From Heterotrichella gracilis (Eukaryota > Sar > Xanthophyceae > Tribonematales > Xanthonemataceae): DNA of 45,133 nucleotides. Within the stretch, counting starts at the first letter, position 1. Each line of letters begins with the position of its first letter. Below the pieces are notes generated by a model. The model ran no database searches. It was not told where the DNA came from and saw nothing but the letters and a program-made list of their open reading frames with translations. The stretch is taken from NCBI GenBank assembly GCA_032358255.1, contig JAULBX010026641.1:1-45133 (forward strand), written 5' to 3'. Shown one piece after another: positions 5,729 to 44,138 of the stretch. Position numbers and translations under genes: made by a program.

Positions 5729-7838
5729 TCACACTCTCTGAAATGCCGCCTCGACCCTCTTGCCCTTGCCCACCGCGCGCCTAACCTTCTCCACGAACTG
5801 GTCCCGCTCACAGGTGCGCTCCGCCACTGCCTCATGGGACTCTTCAAGCTCTACAAGCACCGGCAGCCTGACAGTGCCAGGAGACGCTGTAATATATTCA
5901 CAATTTGGGTTGCCTAATCCCATGGTTTGTGAAACTGCTCCAGAGTTGCTATATGTTCTCCTCTACAATTCCACAACCACCACCACCCAACAACATGCCT
6001 AGGGATGAGCTATGCGTTACATGGGCCGTTGTCAAATAATATGTTAAATGGTGATGGTGATATCAAGCCTGTTCAAGCTGATATAAAACGCCTCATTAAT
6101 GCCTCCTTACTTTACAGCACATCTTGATCACGCATGCAGGTTTTTTTCTCAACAAAAATGTGCATGAGGTACTGTAAGTGGAGAGTTAGGCAGTTGCATT
6201 TATTGGTGCACTCCATGCAGCTTTTCCAGGCCCGCATCTCAATCCACTGCCAGAGAGCAACAATCTGCCACATCGCGCTGCTACCATATTCAGCACCAGT
6301 ACATCACGGGGTTGAGCGAGAAACTCCACATCATAGAAGGCAACCATGGAACAAAACATCCAAACTTCCTAACACACATCACATGGACCTCGCAAGCCCT
6401 TACCATCTCCACTGCCTTGAGCCTCTGCTTCAGAGCAGCATTCTCCTCGCGCAGGGCTGCAGCGCTGCGCGAACCGTCAGCATCAGCAAGGCTTACATCC
6501 TCCATTAAATCTGAAGCTGCGCAGTGGAGCATAACGAAGCGGTTGGCACTGGCAACAGCTGTATCCAGTTCTCGCTTGTTGGTACCACAGCGTTGACAGG
6601 CAGGAAAGCTGCCATCAAGGAGTGTGCACACCAGCACAGCAGACAGGACATTGCATCCTACTAGGGTAAAAACAACCAGCATAAGCGTGTCCACCCCGGC
6701 AGAAGTGTCTTTGAGGGTGAGCCGCACCACGCAGTCAAAACCGACGGCTTATCTAACCGTTGAGGCCAAGCCTGCCAGAGGCGGACGTACCAGTAGCTAA
6801 ACAACATGTCCCATGCAACACAGCTGTTCCAGTGTCAGCGCGCACCCGCATGGAAATGGTGGCTGCCAGCAGATGCAATCGCCAATTGCAAATCACTGCC
6901 AACCCCAAGCAAATTGTTGGGATTCATGATCATTGGGGTCTCGAGGAGCTCCCTTTACAAGTGTGACTCAACTGGTGCGGTGCACCGTACGCCCTTATGC
7001 TGCTCAATGGAAACGCCATTTCGCTTGGCTTACCTGGGAGCACGGCTCGCCCAGCGCTGCTGACGGTGCTGCTGACCGCCTCCTGTGGTTCAAGGGGAGC
7101 TTGAAGCCTCAGGCAAACGGGACACTGTACTGGCAAGGACTGGTCCAAGTACTGGCAAGGACGCCAAAAGTAGCAGCACATTGCAAGGGCCGCGATGCTT
7201 GCACATGTCTCCCCCCGCAGGCACAAAGAGAATACAAGTCCTGGCTGAAGCATACAAAAGACAACCTGGTGCATCTTCAATAGCATGTGTGCACAAGTGA
7301 AGCAGTGAGTGGGTCACCCGATGCTGGCATACCCCTTGATTGGCCCCCTCAAAGGTGAGCACGCTGCTTGCAAATTGGTCCACCTGGCTACGAGCAACCT
7401 CCTGCGTGGCATGGAGACATAGTACACAACCTGACGTTTTGCTGAAGGAGGTGTGGACTACTGTGAGGACAGAGGTGCAGGTAGTGAGCAAGCCCAAGTG
7501 CGTTGGGGCAACCAGGGTTGACGTGTACAAGCACAGCAAAGTGAAACACTTGCAGGTTGACTACTGTGAGGACAAAAGGTTGAACACAGGGTGTGCTTGA
7601 CAGCTGTATAAGCGCAAAATGAAGGATGACCCGGGACCTCAGGGCGGTGATTAAGCGCCCTGGTTGTCGAGGGTTGGCCATGGGCATGTGCATGCAACGA
7701 GAGGTTGGTAGCGATGAAAGAGTCTCTGGATCTGTGTACACAGATGCGCACCAGATGCTCATCCAGCCCAACCTCTCTGGCCAAGGTATCAGCCTGCTCC
7801 CGCAGAGTCTGTGTCAAGTTGCTAATTTGGCTCCACAT
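5729..7838 (-). CDS. Coiled-coil protein gene with very short exons
   Basis: Exons read right to left on the minus strand. The first is 7752-7838, starting at an ATG: MWSQISNLTQTLREQADTL, a clean heptad pattern. It is followed in phase by 7333-7401 (EVARSQVDQFASSVLTFEG) and 7034-7082. Then comes a larger exon whose donor end is at 6404, with its 5' edge near 6590-6612, encoding ALREENAALKQRLKAVEM. The last is near 5729-5889 (VELEESHEAVAERTCERDQF) and ends in TGA at 5729. The first three exons are phase-consistent. The joins to the last two are not resolved, and a small exon may be missing between 5,890 and 6,400. The product is predicted to be largely alpha-helical coiled coil. No named family is recognised. 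The ATG at 7838 may be internal if more exons lie upstream. Confidence 0.5.
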
Positions 7839-37661: not shown

Positions 37662-40600
37662 ATGCTGCTGGAAGTACTGTCTCAGCTGCCAGAATATGTG
37701 CACAGAGCAAACGACGCGCTAGAGGTGCGCCCCCCCCAACCCCAAACCGCCAAAGGTTCACAGTGCGCACATTAACGCATGTTTCCAAGTTGATATATCA
37801 CCCTCCACACACACCAACTGCCATATGTACCGAGAAATGTACAGATATAGCCCTTGTGAAGGGTTTACTCTTGATCTTCGCTGCCCCACCCCCCCACCCC
37901 AAGCACCTTGCACAAGCCTCTCAAGCACCCCTTGGTACAGGCGCTGCTGCTTTGGTTCCTCCTGGTGGGAGCGGCAGTGGCGCTGCTATGCCGACAGCCA
38001 AAGGGCCAAGAAGAGGACACAAGTGAGAGGGGGGTAAAGGCAGGTGAGTGTATATCTGCAAATGGTGTCTGCACCACAAACAGGGGCCCTCAGTAGGGTC
38101 TTGGAAGGGCCTTGGCACTGGTGCCGGCCGGTGCTGGATTGCAAATGGAAAGGCGAGCATGGTGTCATCAGCTTTGCCACTCAAGTAGGCTACCATACCG
38201 CATACGCCACGTGTTGATGAGCTTTGCCAGGAGCCTTGCTAGGTTTCCCAACCACCATTACCGGCGCATATGCCCAACCTGCAGCACCTCGCAATGCCCC
38301 AACCTACCATGCAAGATGCACCAACAATGGGGCGCATAGCCCCACCCACCCTACCCACTTAACCTCTATCTGCGCATTGCATAAATCATGGCCTGGACGA
38401 TGGATGGACTACCCACCCTCGCTGTTCGCACATGCCCGTGCATTGCAACACCCATCCGCCGCCCACTCCCTCCCAACCTCCACCACCCTACCCTGCAGCC
38501 CCCACCCGCGCTACCTGGTTTGAGGCACCCTACGACTCCTTCACCAGCCACTTGGGAGTAAACAAGGGTTCCAGCTCCACTCTCACCACCCCCACCACGT
38601 CTCTGGATGTACCCTTAGGGTTATGGGGACCCAGGGACACCCAAGGGGAGTTTTCCAAGCGGGGTAGTGTGGGGAGGACGCTGTCTGGGGGGAGGGTGGC
38701 ATCACATGCAGCAGGAGGGCCCGGGGCATCAACGCAGAGGAATGTGGAGAGTGTTGGGGAGAGTGGCGCGCCCACACCCGCCCCACGGGCAGCGTGTGAG
38801 GGTGAGGCAGGGATGTTGATGACTGCTCCGGGGCATATCAGTGGGGAGGCTGGTGTGGGTGGGGAAGAGCTGGAGGCTTTCCCGCGCACACAGTCCGCCC
38901 TTACGCGCTCGCTCAACATGGTGGGTGGGGGTGGGGGCTTTTGGGGGAGGGGCACAAAGGGGTGAAGGCGATTGGTGGGATGCTACATGTGCCACTGGCT
39001 TGTCATATGTGCTTGCTGGTGACGATGTGCATTTGGTAAGATTTGATTATGCTCTGTGCTATGGTTTGACTGTGGTTTGACCATGGTTCTGGTTTGGCAT
39101 TTGGGTTTTCATATACTGGTGTGTGCTGCCATGTGCTGTGCAATCCTCCTCGTCCTTGCAGCCTGCCCTGCCCGCATGTGAATTGCCGCTGAACCCTTTC
39201 TGCCCCCCCTGCCGCAGCTGACCACCAGCATGGGCGTGGACCATAGCGTGATCCAGCCCGAAGCAATTGAGTGGGACACCAACCCTGATGGGAGCCAGGT
39301 GCAGCTGGGGTGCGGAGCATACGGGAAGGTAAGCAAACCCTACCGTAGGGTAAACCCTGGAATCCTCAACCCCCTACGAATATTTGTAGCACATCAAGTG
39401 AGGTGGAGGAGGGTTGTTGCGCACCCAGAAAGCTCAAGGTTGGAGACATCCAGCATCATATCCACCACCACCACCCTGGATATGTAGTCATGGTAGTGGG
39501 TCCTTCAGATCCCAGGTGGTGGGGTCCACCTCGTCCTTCACCTGGTACGTACTGGGGTGTGCCTCTGTGCCTTGTGTGCACTGCCTGTTCCCATGCTCCT
39601 GCATTTGCAAGTGTGATATGATGTCACATAATATCACATGCACGCCAAGTATAACATAAACCCCCTGTGCAGGTTATCCGCGCCATCTACTGCGGCACGC
39701 TGCCTGTGGCCGTGAAGGTGATGCTTGCGCGCGATCCGCAGGCTCTGGCCGCATTCATGAGGGAGATCACGCTGATGAGACACCTGCACTGCCCGCACAT
39801 AGTCCAGGTGAGGATCCCTGGGGGTTCCTGGGTGGACGCTGGTCGTGCCCATTGTGCATTTACATGTTTATTGTATAATATATTATTGTTCATTGTCTTA
39901 TTTTAAATCAAGCTATTAATGTATCTACTGTGCCCCAGCCCACAAACCCTCCATGTGATCACCTTCCCCCGCACACTATAAACGGTGTGAAACTCCCTGA
40001 ACTATCCAAATGACCGGTTCTTCACACACATGTAAACGTCACTCATCCGTCCCCCACAGTTCATTGGCGCTGGGCTGACCCACCAAGGGGAGCTGATGCT
40101 GGTGACCGAGCTGATGGGGGGCGGGGACCTGCGCGCAGCCATCGACGCGGGGAGAATGCGGTGGGCGAACTCACGGTGAGTGGCTGGGCACAGGTGCCAC
40201 ACACAATCAAATAAGAGCTGATATAGATAGATATATTGATGCCTGCAACGACCTTGTCCCCGTATGTCCATCATTGCTCCACCTATCTGATATTCAGTGG
40301 GCCAACGCCTGCCCTTTCCCTTTTCCTGGGCCTGCACTCCATATTACAGGCCAATGAAAGCAAGCAGCAGGCCATTTATCAATATCTGCACCTCAGCCCT
40401 CATGCCCCACCTCCTTGCCCTCACCCCGCCCCCTCTCCCGCCTCATTTCCCACAGCGGCAAGCGCGCCGCCCTGGACGTTGCCCTTGGCCTTCACTTCCT
40501 TCACGCGCGCCGGATTGTGCATTTTGACATCAAGTCCGGCAACGTGCTGCTGACAGGAGTGGGGTCGGCAAAGATTGCTGACCTGGGGCTGGCAAAGGTG

Positions 40601-43600
40601 AGGGGGAACCCTAGAACCCTAAACAAACAGTAAGCCTTGTGCATATCCTGGCCGCCAGTAAGTCAAGTAGTATATAGTGTGAGAATCAGAGGTTGTGTGT
40701 TGCTCTGGCCATTCCATATTGTACCACTGCTTACTCCACCCTTGTTGCGCGCATCCTGCTGACCGCCCCAACACCCACGCACTTGGCCCCCACCCACACA
40801 GGCGCAGCTGTCCAGTGATAGCGGCTCCTTCATCCCTGGCACCTACAGCTACGCCGCCCCCGAGGTGCTGCAGGGGGGGCAGGTTGACGAGCGTGTGGAC
40901 ATCTACGCGTATGGCATAGTGCTGTGGGAGCTGGTCACGGGGGAGGTGCCGGGCACAAGGGGGGGGCTGCGGCCCATAAGGTGGGGGTGGAAGGCAGAAC
41001 CCTAGGGAGTGGTGGGTATGGCTGTGGGGGCAGGGGGCATGTATTCCACTACCTGAGATGTTTACCTACCTATGTGTCAAACCCTAGATCAGGGTTTGTG
41101 TGCGGCGGTCGGTCCCAAGGCCACCGCCTTCCCTGCCTTCCGCCATCTGCCACCTGCTGGCCGTGTGTTTGCAGATGGCTCACCACCTGCAAGCCACGTG
41201 CATGTGCATGTGCATGGCCATGGGCCACCACAGGCAAGCTACTGCAGTGGGCAGCAGCGCAGCATGGCAGCCATAGAAAATAGGCCAGATCCGCCAGATT
41301 CCCACCCTGTGTTGGACAGCCCAACATGGGGTAAGGGCAGCCGCACCACCACATCCCCTGCGCACGCGCACACACACACACGCACACGATTGCACTCTAT
41401 GCCACCCACAACACAAACCCAAATTACCCTAGGGTTCCCGAAGAGTGCGATGCTGTCATCGCTGAGCTCACCGCGCGCTGCACCGCCGCACACCCGAAAA
41501 ATCGCCCCGCTGCCAAGGAGATTGTGGACACACTCAAACCCTATCTGCGCCAGGTGAGAAACCCCTAGGTCAAACCCCAAGGACGTGGTGAGCACCGTCA
41601 TCCCTGCCTGCGCCAAGTGTGCATGTGTGTATGGAAAGCACCCTGCAACCCTACACTGCCAATGCTCAAACCAGGAGACATTAGGCGCATGGTTTGGGTG
41701 CCAGCAATGCACCCACTCACACACTCACTATGGCGGGAGTGTGTGCCCTCACCACATGTGTACACTCATAGGGTGCTGTATGCTCTCACTTCGCCTCATC
41801 TTGTTCATTGATTGCCCCTTCTTTCCCGCAGGACACCCTCCGTCGGCGCAGCATCAAGGGTTCCAGCCAGGCAAGCATGGGGGGCCGGGGGCGCGGGTAC
41901 GGTCGGAGTGTGAGTGTGGACGGCGGATTGGCCAAGGGGAAGGCAGGTGAGGGGAGGGCGCAAGGGGGTAGGGGCCACAGGTACATGTGCATGTAGCAGC
42001 CTCCTGGCAGTGCATGTATTGGGGGTGCGTGCACGGGCATGGATGGAATGTGCAGGTACTCACATGTGCACAATGTTGAGTGTACACTGCGCATCTCAAA
42101 TCCTGTCTAGAAATATAAGAGGTCGTGATCACAATATTTTGACAGTATTTTGTATTGGTTGCAAATAAATTATGTGGCGTTATTACTAGTTAGTTGGTGC
42201 TTGGCATAAAAACTTTTCTTGTGATCGTAATTGTAGCTCCAATTACCCTAAGGTAGGGTGATTATGACCTGCTGGTTTCTACATGCATGCACATGAATAT
42301 GGAGCCCTCCACTCCATATTCCCCCATAGCACCACCCTCCACTTGCAGGCCAATCTGAGTGCACCTTGGTCTCAGCGGTGCACTTGTGGCGCAACTCAGA
42401 GGCAGCGCTGCAGGGACAAGGGGGCAGCACAGATGTGGAAGATTTAGGGGTAGAGCCACAACAATTATCCGCCAAACTGCCCCTCGCGACTGCGCACCTG
42501 CCCTTCATCACCAGTGATGGCAAACCCCCAACTACCACCAGTGCCGCGAGTATGGTCCCCAATCCTCGGCCACTCGCTAGCAGAGCCAGATCTGGCCGCA
42601 ATATTGTCTCGCCGTTTGGATCCCCTAGGTCACCGATGCCAGTGCCGACAACCACAGAGGAGGCAGGTCCGTCTCCTGAGAGGCAGGGTATGACCTCAGG
42701 CTCTGCGCCCGGGGCATGCCCAATGACGTTTGCCTGCCCCACTCACACGCCCACCTCCCCAGAAGGTACGGTCATCCAAAATTTGTTGCATGGATTTTGT
42801 TTGTAGATGTTGATCCCAATTGATGAATCACAGTTGGCATCTGCAATGCCCACAAGTCATGGACAATTATCATCTGGCCCCTCAATGCCATCCAACCCAG
42901 TGTACCCTTCCGCCCGCAGCCCCCTCCACGGCCCCACACCCCATCCCACCCGACCCCCCTCCGGGTACCCCGCTCCTCAAGTGCCCCAGCCGCCGCGCCC
43001 TCCTCCAGCGCATGGGGGGCATTCGAGTGGCGGACGCCGTCATGACTAACTTCCTCGACCGCATGTTGGTGGACGACAGGGTCATGCGCTTCTTCGACGG
43101 CATGGATAGGCGCAAGTTTGCGTCCTACAAGGTGGGGAATGCCAAGCAGGCAGGCCATGCTGGGGCCGCGGAATTATGCATATGATGCATTGCATGCAAT
43201 TCATTTCAATTTGATACAAGTGTATAATGCATTGCAGCTAGCGCGTGGCATCGATGGATATCTTTGTGCTGCAGCTGTTTTGAGCATGTTATGTTTGCTG
43301 TCGGGGAAGTCTGGGATCAATCCACATTGCGGCATGCGACCAACGTGCTCGAGTGACCTACAACTGGTGGTAACAAATAGCAGCACTACTGTGTTAAATG
43401 GCGGGCAGGCAGCCGCTTCCCATTGTGACTGGATGCACCATGTAAGATCATGCAGCCACCCACCATGCACATTCTGGTACCACCATGCTCTATTCTGTCT
43501 GGGCAACCTCGTTACGTCCCTAACCGCGTCCCCGCCTGCAGTGCAACTGGATGCACTATGTGTTTGAGGGGCCCGGGCAGTACAGTGGTCCCGACCTGCC

Positions 43601-44138
43601 CACCATCCACCAGCGGGCGGTGCAGGAGCAGGGCGCATCACGTGACCACTGGCGTGCGCTGGCCAACCACATGGTGGCGGCCCTGGTGGAGGAGTGGGTG
43701 CCCATGGTGAGTGGTGCACCATGGTGCAGCTCCCGGCACGCTCGGTGAAGCTGCGTGTAGGGCCCTGGGTTGCACTTAGGGCTAATGGAGTGCATGCAAT
43801 ATATGCAAGCATATGGTAGACCCGGTACACATTATCTGTGCACCCACATACCCTTTTGGCTCCTCACCCCTCTCACATCCCCTCCTCTGCAGGGGCCAGG
43901 TCCCATTCCACTAACCGCATCTTCTGACTTTGCCCCTCCATCGCTTTTGCATCCCTGTTCAAACCTCCCTCACCCGGTAATCCTCTTGTGCAATTTTCAG
44001 GATCTGATACAGGAGGCGTATGTCAACCTGCAAGCCTCCCAAGACATGTTCCCGGAGCCTTCACAGCAACACGTGGCACTGTGCCTGCCATGGGGGGGGG
44101 TGAGCGGGCCAGGACTGCTGGCGCCGGTGGTGGAGTAG
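37662..44138 (+). CDS. Transmembrane TKL-type kinase with C-terminal truncated globin domain
   Basis: Fourteen exons join in phase to 812 residues: 37662-37724, 37941-38043, 38499-38920, 39218-39328, 39673-39807, 40060-40175, 40456-40597, 40802-40980, 41433-41553, 41832-41946, 42349-42765, 42920-43131, 43542-43706, 44001-44138. A hydrophobic segment (about 22-40, ALLLWFLLVGAAVALLC) predicts one membrane helix. The kinase domain (about 215-462) has LGCGAYGKV (226-234), Lys248, Glu264, HFDIKSGN (339-346, HFD replacing HRD), DLG (359-361, replacing DFG), and APE (383-385). Catalytic residues are kept, so it is probably active. A Ser/Pro-rich linker (465-660) leads to a 2/2 globin (about 667-790): ALLQRMGG, FLDRMLVDDRVMRFFDGMD, QYSGPDLPTIH with proximal His735. 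Position B10 is Leu rather than the usual Tyr. The first exon and start are uncertain. An alternative is two adjacent genes. Kinase and globin calls are firm; the fusion is likely. Confidence 0.8.
39337..39351. repeat. Palindrome ACCCTAC-C-GTAGGGT
   Basis: It has 7-bp perfect arms and lies eight bases downstream of the donor of the fourth coding exon of the kinase-globin gene. Confidence 0.75.
41078..41098. repeat. Palindrome CAAACCCT-AGATC-AGGGTTTG
   Basis: It has 8-bp perfect arms in a kinase-globin intron. The arm AAACCCTA equals the plant telo-box and telomere-type motif. Confidence 0.75.
41426..41435. repeat. Palindrome ACCCTAGGGT at a splice acceptor
   Basis: This perfect 10-bp palindrome overlaps the acceptor (CCCTAG) of the last kinase-domain exon, which starts at 41433. 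Confidence 0.7.
42245..42259. repeat. Palindrome ACCCTA-AGG-TAGGGT
   Basis: It has 6-bp perfect arms in the intron before the linker exon of the kinase-globin gene. Confidence 0.7.

Follow-up and report, generated by a model that had tools for sequence, protein, structure and literature searches.

Globin-coupled sensors carry an N-terminal sensor globin of the 3/3 type that steers a signalling output. The 2/2 globins are found in other arrangements. According to PMC7082302, fusions of 2/2 globins to a protein kinase or to nitrate reductase, and proteins with multiple 2/2 globins, are known from genomes. Similarly, nitric oxide synthase (NOS)-globin fusions are described in several green algae (PMC8728061). 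Because of these two sets of fusions, globins on algal signalling proteins are not new. Green algae possess many 2/2 globins, twelve in Chlamydomonas as stated in PMC4620153, whose functions are mostly obscure, and the sensing of O2 and nitric oxide (NO) in algae is still open. A globin tied to a kinase provides a direct test, with ligand in and phosphorylation out. The window analysed here is the whole of contig JAULBX010026641.1 from Heterotrichella gracilis, 45,133 nucleotides (nt) in length, which is contig C413 of the 68.5 Mb assembly on which the paralogue searches were run. A kinase and a globin are almost certainly coded by one gene in this window. What is new is that the gene belongs to an expanded kinase-globin family, some members of which carry tandem globins.

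A single open frame on the plus strand (37662–44138) runs through 14 exons, which close in phase to 812 codons plus a stop codon without internal stop. This is the model of the initial annotation, rebuilt exactly, and all 13 introns are GT-AG. Transcription as one mRNA and insertion of the product into a membrane would be expected, which goes beyond what a gene model shows. The features are:

37662..37724, plus strand: exon 1, start codon and N-terminal 21 residues; open frame, GT donor
37941..38043, plus strand: exon 2, likely transmembrane helix ALLLWFLLVGAAVALLC, then RQPKGQ; by hydropathy
38499..38920, plus strand: exon 3, low-complexity juxtamembrane region; open frame in phase
39218..39328, plus strand: exon 4, start of the kinase domain with the glycine-rich loop; Pfam and spliced alignment
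39673..39807, plus strand: exon 5, kinase, catalytic Lys248 and Glu264; Pfam, alignment
40060..40175, plus strand: exon 6, kinase; Pfam, alignment
40456..40597, plus strand: exon 7, kinase catalytic loop HFDIKSGN and DLG motif; Pfam, alignment
40802..40980, plus strand: exon 8, kinase activation segment and C-lobe; Pfam, alignment
41433..41553, plus strand: exon 9, end of the kinase C-lobe; Pfam, alignment
41832..41946, plus strand: exon 10, basic and glycine-rich linker; open frame in phase
42349..42765, plus strand: exon 11, long linker of 417 nt, phase 1 to phase 1
42766..42919, plus strand: intron between linker and globin, 154 nt; donor GTACGG, acceptor CCCGCAG
42920..43131, plus strand: exon 12, proline-rich lead and globin helices A to E
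43542..43706, plus strand: exon 13, middle globin exon with the proximal His735 (F8)
44001..44138, plus strand: exon 14, end of the globin (DLIQEAYVNLQASQDMFPEP), tail and stop; the last exon of the paralogues is similar

The fusion is recurrent in this genome. The assembly was searched with a globin profile and with two globins, that of the window and one from contig C150, which gave 13 contigs after C760 (E 0.034, one internal stop) was dropped. Approximately 10–20 kb were fetched from every one of the remaining 12 contigs, and the kinase and globin queries were run there. In 11 of the 15 globin genes counted, the window gene included, the globin exons have kinase exons upstream of them on the same strand; chance would give 0.1–0.2 cases of this kind among 15, even with all 641 kinase candidates taken as genes. 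The nine fetched fused genes lie on C749, C150, C272, C427 (two genes), C277, C106, C270 and C376. C270 was kept because its fetched locus gave a tblastn E of 1.4e-4 and a three-exon globin; its whole-genome globin matches are no better than that of C760 (E 0.04 at best, 0.14 in one search). A second gene on C376 is known from exon matches only, with its kinase at 58024–59611 and globin exons from 60644. The exon at 60644 has an E of 0.19 and lies 1.0 kb past the last kinase match, while the first significant globin exon, at 63494, lies 3.9 kb past it. The strict count, leaving out C270 for its weak globin and the second C376 gene, is 9 of 13. On C556, C161, C141 and C306, the last of which was detected by the Pfam profile alone and not by the globin sequence queries, the sequence fetched upstream of the globins showed no kinase.

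The gap between the kinase core and the first globin is about 0.4 kb in C272, where the kinase ends just 387 nt upstream of the globin, and 0.8–1.2 kb in the other fetched genes; in C277 it is 0.8 kb to a weak partial globin and 1.3 kb to the first clear globin. In C150, one open exon holds the end of globin 1 and the beginning of globin 2, which places tandem globins on one chain.

Several further arrangements were observed on these contigs. In both C376 (L038) and C277 (L032/L033), three or more tandem globins come after a kinase gene, and their E11 residue is Arg or Lys. At 58024–67104 of C376, the second kinase is accompanied by further globin exon matches. The frame between the kinase and the globin of C150 (L020) consists of repeated RRDSNPRNDESFG-like units. 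At 7138–9800 of C161 (L024), a globin with the same exon lengths has no kinase in about 9 kb upstream; an upstream frame there looks armadillo-like by eye and gave no significant Pfam match.

Within the window gene, the kinase and the globin are joined as initially annotated: exon 11 leaves one base over, the globin frame is entered at 42920, and donor GTACGG and acceptor CCCGCAG are both in phase 1 across an intron that again measured 154 nt. The donor is weak, and so is the coding signal of exon 11. In addition, in-frame ATGs precede the globin in the window gene (from 42823) and in C749. These features could be read as a membrane kinase gene and a separate, adjacent globin gene mistaken for one, to which we give very little credence. 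The kinase-globin order is repeated in other genes of the genome. The unspliced frame before the first globin exon has no ATG in 5 of 7 genes (C272, C427a, C427b, C106 and C150; C277, C270 and C376 were uninformative, since a later or partial globin exon was viewed). A first globin exon without ATG must be spliced to upstream sequence, and the kinase is what lies upstream. The kinase-less globin of C556 starts with a MASAVATVES leader. Moreover, exon 10 (donor GTGAGG) joined straight to exon 12 also stays in frame and yields 673 residues. Exon 11 may hence be optional, and as its skipping keeps the frame, the fusion holds even without the weak donor. TGTAA, which we take to be the algal poly(A) signal, is absent from the plus strand at 42349–43131, although the motif occurs at chance frequency in the window and its absence is weak evidence. 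The counts of 5 of 7 for start codons and 9 of 13 for strictly counted paralogues strongly favour one gene, and from the paralogues and the lacking start codons two separate genes appear unlikely.

The exons are not equally well supported. Exon 1 (63 nt) is the weakest and has neither independent nor homologue support. Exons 3 and 11 have a weak codon-position signal, unlike the kinase and globin exons; their GC contents by codon position are 0.60/0.65/0.67 and 0.58/0.64/0.60, respectively. For a longer N-terminus reaching upstream of 37662, the open frames at 31–38 kb were judged by eye and offered nothing convincing. The window gave no hit in Rfam and tRNA scans, and ten of its longer open frames had none in Pfam.

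Profile searches with the 812-residue model returned the kinase clearly and the globin just over the cut-off. The kinase domain occupies residues 225–458 (PF07714, E 2.6e-43; PF00069, E 1.3e-41). All catalytic residues were claimed in the initial annotation, and alignment located the Lys, the Glu, the HxD, the Asn and the Asp as K248, E264, H339, D341, N346 and D359, with HFD in place of HRD and DLG in place of DFG. Kinase cores for ten genes, together with 16 kinase-linked globin domains, were obtained with a custom spliced aligner that reproduces the window exons. In the resulting kinase alignment (A2), the catalytic residues are invariant where the rows cover them; the C270 row lacks the N-lobe. 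A search of solved sequences with the A2 profile placed an EGFR entry first and CTR1 next, with BRI1, IRAK4 and RAF in the best 60. The profile match and these nearest solved kinases identify the domain as TKL-type.

Hydropathy reaches 2.45 over 19 residues at exon 2, predicting one likely transmembrane helix. By a crude test for a helix upstream of the kinase (hydropathy threshold 2.2, within 2.6 kb), 3 of 10 genes pass, namely the window gene, C427a and C427b; C272 falls narrowly under the threshold (2.18). A membrane anchor as a trait of the family was rejected on this count. The initial annotation had described one gene with a membrane anchor, a TKL kinase and a 2/2 globin; this structure is strongly backed by paralogues of the same order, with a clear helix detected in those three genes.

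The globin corresponds to residues 671–771 (PF01152, 23 bits in the whole protein against a cut-off of 21), and the domain alone scores 26.9 and 28.3 bits on the same profile. Against the PDB sequence set, it matches a cyanoglobin with E 1.7e-15, ungapped over 106 residues as shown, and Chlamydomonas THB1 with E 5.4e-15. Based on the PF01152, cyanoglobin and THB1 matches, the domain is by its sequence a group-1 2/2 globin. In 11 of the 16 kinase-linked domains, the exon in the middle of the globin measures 165 or 171 nt; it is 165 nt in the kinase-less C556 and C161 as well. Other lengths occur in C277 and in two C376 domains, and the C141 globin lacks the first intron. A foreign origin of the window globin was considered and set aside, as its second and third exon lengths of 165 and 57 nt match those of the other globins of the genome.

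The haem pocket was compared in 19 aligned globins (alignment A1, without one weak C277 globin piece of score 66), with position names that we assigned from known structures. The window globin has Leu687 at B10, Phe699–700 in the CD1 region, Tyr711 at E10, Lys712 at E11 and His735 at F8. The usual distal pair of Tyr B10 and Gln E11, which is common and not required, is not found in it. In the alignment, Tyr occupies B10 in 16 of the 19 globins, Lys occupies E10 in 8 and Gln occupies E11 in 11. Across the family, E10 is occupied by Lys, Gln, Tyr, Met and others, and E11 by Gln, Lys, Arg and others; this variation in distal residues, together with that in globin number, within one genome offers a ready comparison set. 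The proximal His at F8 is present in 17 of the 19 globins and in 14 of the 16 kinase-linked domains. From His735 and the CD1 Phe, the window globin likely binds haem, and the alterations in its distal pocket suggest a role different from the mere storage of O2.

The same pocket can be taken to indicate that the globin is a structural or protein-binding module, haem-poor or haem-free, which serves dimerisation or docking and senses no gas. Leu B10, Tyr E10 and Lys E11 differ from the residues of its relatives, and two kinase-linked domains have no proximal His. We regard this as unlikely, though it is the alternative that we weigh most seriously, since the window gene retains the proximal His and the two Phe at CD1, the His is kept in most kinase-linked domains, and the cyanoglobin match is ungapped. 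Lys at E10, which we take to be the position of the distal ligand in THB1, occurs in 5 kinase-linked domains (two each in C749 and C150, one in C272). It raises another alternative, that of an enzymatic globin (an NO dioxygenase or a nitrite reductase, for example) parked at the membrane beside a kinase that does not respond to it. THB1 of Chlamydomonas is an NO dioxygenase partnering nitrate reductase, according to PMC4620153. Nevertheless, the window globin has no Lys at E10, and a kinase has been kept alongside the globin in 11 of 15 genes, which suggests that the two work together; we consider a parked enzyme improbable, more so than a structural module.

The favoured explanation is a membrane kinase-globin, one of a family of fused kinase-globins, that would sense through haem; as a whole we hold it to be probable. 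The window gene would encode a single-pass membrane protein with a cytoplasmic, active-looking TKL-type kinase and a C-terminal group-1 2/2 globin. The globin would bind haem through His735. A change of ligand or iron state, involving O2, NO, carbon monoxide (CO), sulphide, or an internal ligation by the distal Lys or Tyr, may then shift the contact between globin and kinase and alter phosphorylation. A haem domain and a kinase on one polypeptide, as expected of a haem-based sensor kinase, are found in the gene model and in the paralogues. For the haem-sensor mechanism itself, the sequence tips the balance only slightly in favour. It is reasonable to regard control of the kinase by a haem ligand as the most economical reason for the pairing to be kept in about eleven genes, with a structural or enzymatic role as a possibility. 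More tentatively, the lineage may possess some eleven haem-sensor TKL kinases of its own, each with one to several C-terminal 2/2 globins that would be tuned by their differing distal residues to provide a direct route from haem to phosphorylation for O2, NO or redox state, with the His-less members being insensitive or acting as regulatory partners.

The approximately eleven kinase-(2/2 globin)n genes would most simply have arisen from one ancestral fusion, followed by duplication, multiplication of globins and some loss of globins. A tree of 31 kinases unites the ten fused kinases with seven globin-free ones from this genome (97/89); among the fused ones, the window kinase is the first branch. 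Six of the globin-free kinases (L041, L044, L045, L046, L047 and L048) cluster (89/87) and join seven fused ones (89/90). Ten globin-free kinases, on contigs without a globin match, were sampled out of many for this tree. The tree fits one early fusion with later loss, or several events; loss of the globin is possible in the six. Kinase and globin distances among the ten genes are correlated (r 0.42; 259 of 20,000 permutations as high), and remain so without C427b (r 0.37; 751 of 20,000), as expected if both domains travel together.

Several observations weigh against this explanation. The fused kinases do not form one clade (0 of 200 bootstrap trees), and the six globin-free kinases grouping with them are close relatives, so that the function of the kinase does not require a globin. 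The window globin is divergent, its 23–28 bits being near the cut-off, and is without Tyr B10 and Gln E11. The F8 His is replaced by Tyr in C106 and by Val in the first C376 domain, and haem binding is accordingly not needed in every one of the 16 kinase-linked domains. Finally, the same domain order was looked for in other algae, as the initial annotation had suggested, and protein-database searches, in which coverage of algae is thin, found no kinase-globin fusion there.

The extent of these searches was as follows. None of 332 candidates of 447–1421 amino acids (aa) matched the window globin at E ≤ 1. The C150 globins had 27 matches among candidates of 400–1272 aa from a database of 5.8 billion proteins. 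For residues 200–812, scoring covered the 8000 candidates with the most shared words, and 120 of the 153 matches were listed. Among the matches listed, the kinase relatives include proteins of Parachlorella, Elliptochloris, Auxenochlorella and Apatococcus, with 43–47% identity over the kinase; no globin was found in the 120, either in the Pfam list or with profile A1 at E ≤ 10. Judged by these relatives and by the structure of the gene, the genome resembles that of a green alga. The sole named alga among the 27 matches is Astrephomene gubernaculifera, whose Agub_g5719 (P0001) has five tandem 2/2 globins and no kinase. Whether kinase and globin are always separate in relatives, a point raised in the initial annotation, thus has two answers: not within this genome, but so in the database outside it, as in the globin-free kinases and in Astrephomene.

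In the open-access literature searched, a membrane family combining a TKL kinase with a 2/2 globin is nowhere described, although an earlier account of this order is possible. The initial claim that no such family is established holds to this extent, and is qualified by the kinase fusions of PMC7082302 and by a bacterial protein, P0014, with a kinase followed by a globin. The introduction of PMC7082302 mentions the kinase fusions in general terms, giving neither an organism nor a domain order, anchor or family, and the likeness is that of the domain pair and, for its multidomain proteins, of several globins on one chain. The NOS-globin fusions that PMC8728061 reports from green algae and charophytes resemble the window protein in having a signalling enzyme with a C-terminal globin; the enzyme is an NO synthase and not a kinase, and the Klebsormidium globin is, according to that paper, of the M family and not a 2/2 globin. 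Chlamydomonas THB1, THB4 and THB11 and cyanobacterial GlbN, group-1 2/2 globins among the closest solved sequences, have no kinase in their entries, and their distal residues are unlike those of the window globin as far as aligned. The globin-coupled sensors have an N-terminal 3/3 globin, whereas the window protein has a C-terminal PF01152 globin and does not belong among them.

The favoured explanation is supported by analogy with bacterial PF01152 globins that occur with CheA-type kinases, with chemoreceptors and with one Ser/Thr kinase. P0012, P0013 and P0020 are CheA-type histidine kinases with PF01152, and are like the window protein in combining a globin with a signalling module. P0016–P0019 and P0021–P0026 are bacterial chemoreceptors with PF01152, in which the partner is a methyl-accepting protein and not a Ser/Thr-type kinase. 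The globin is internal in P0012 and N-terminal in the chemoreceptors, in contrast to its C-terminal position in the window protein. By their domain lists, P0014 alone among the 27 matches has a Ser/Thr-type kinase domain. Its kinase is bacterial, unlike that of the window protein, with a PknB family model as the best NCBIfam match, under the cut-off; in a search with P0014 (79 loci kept from the best 80 of 528), its globin part was matched by its own locus only. P0014, from a metagenome-assembled genome of Deltaproteobacteria, has its Pkinase domain first (20–280) and its Bac_globin domain last (404–519), in the same order as the window protein and with similar spacing.

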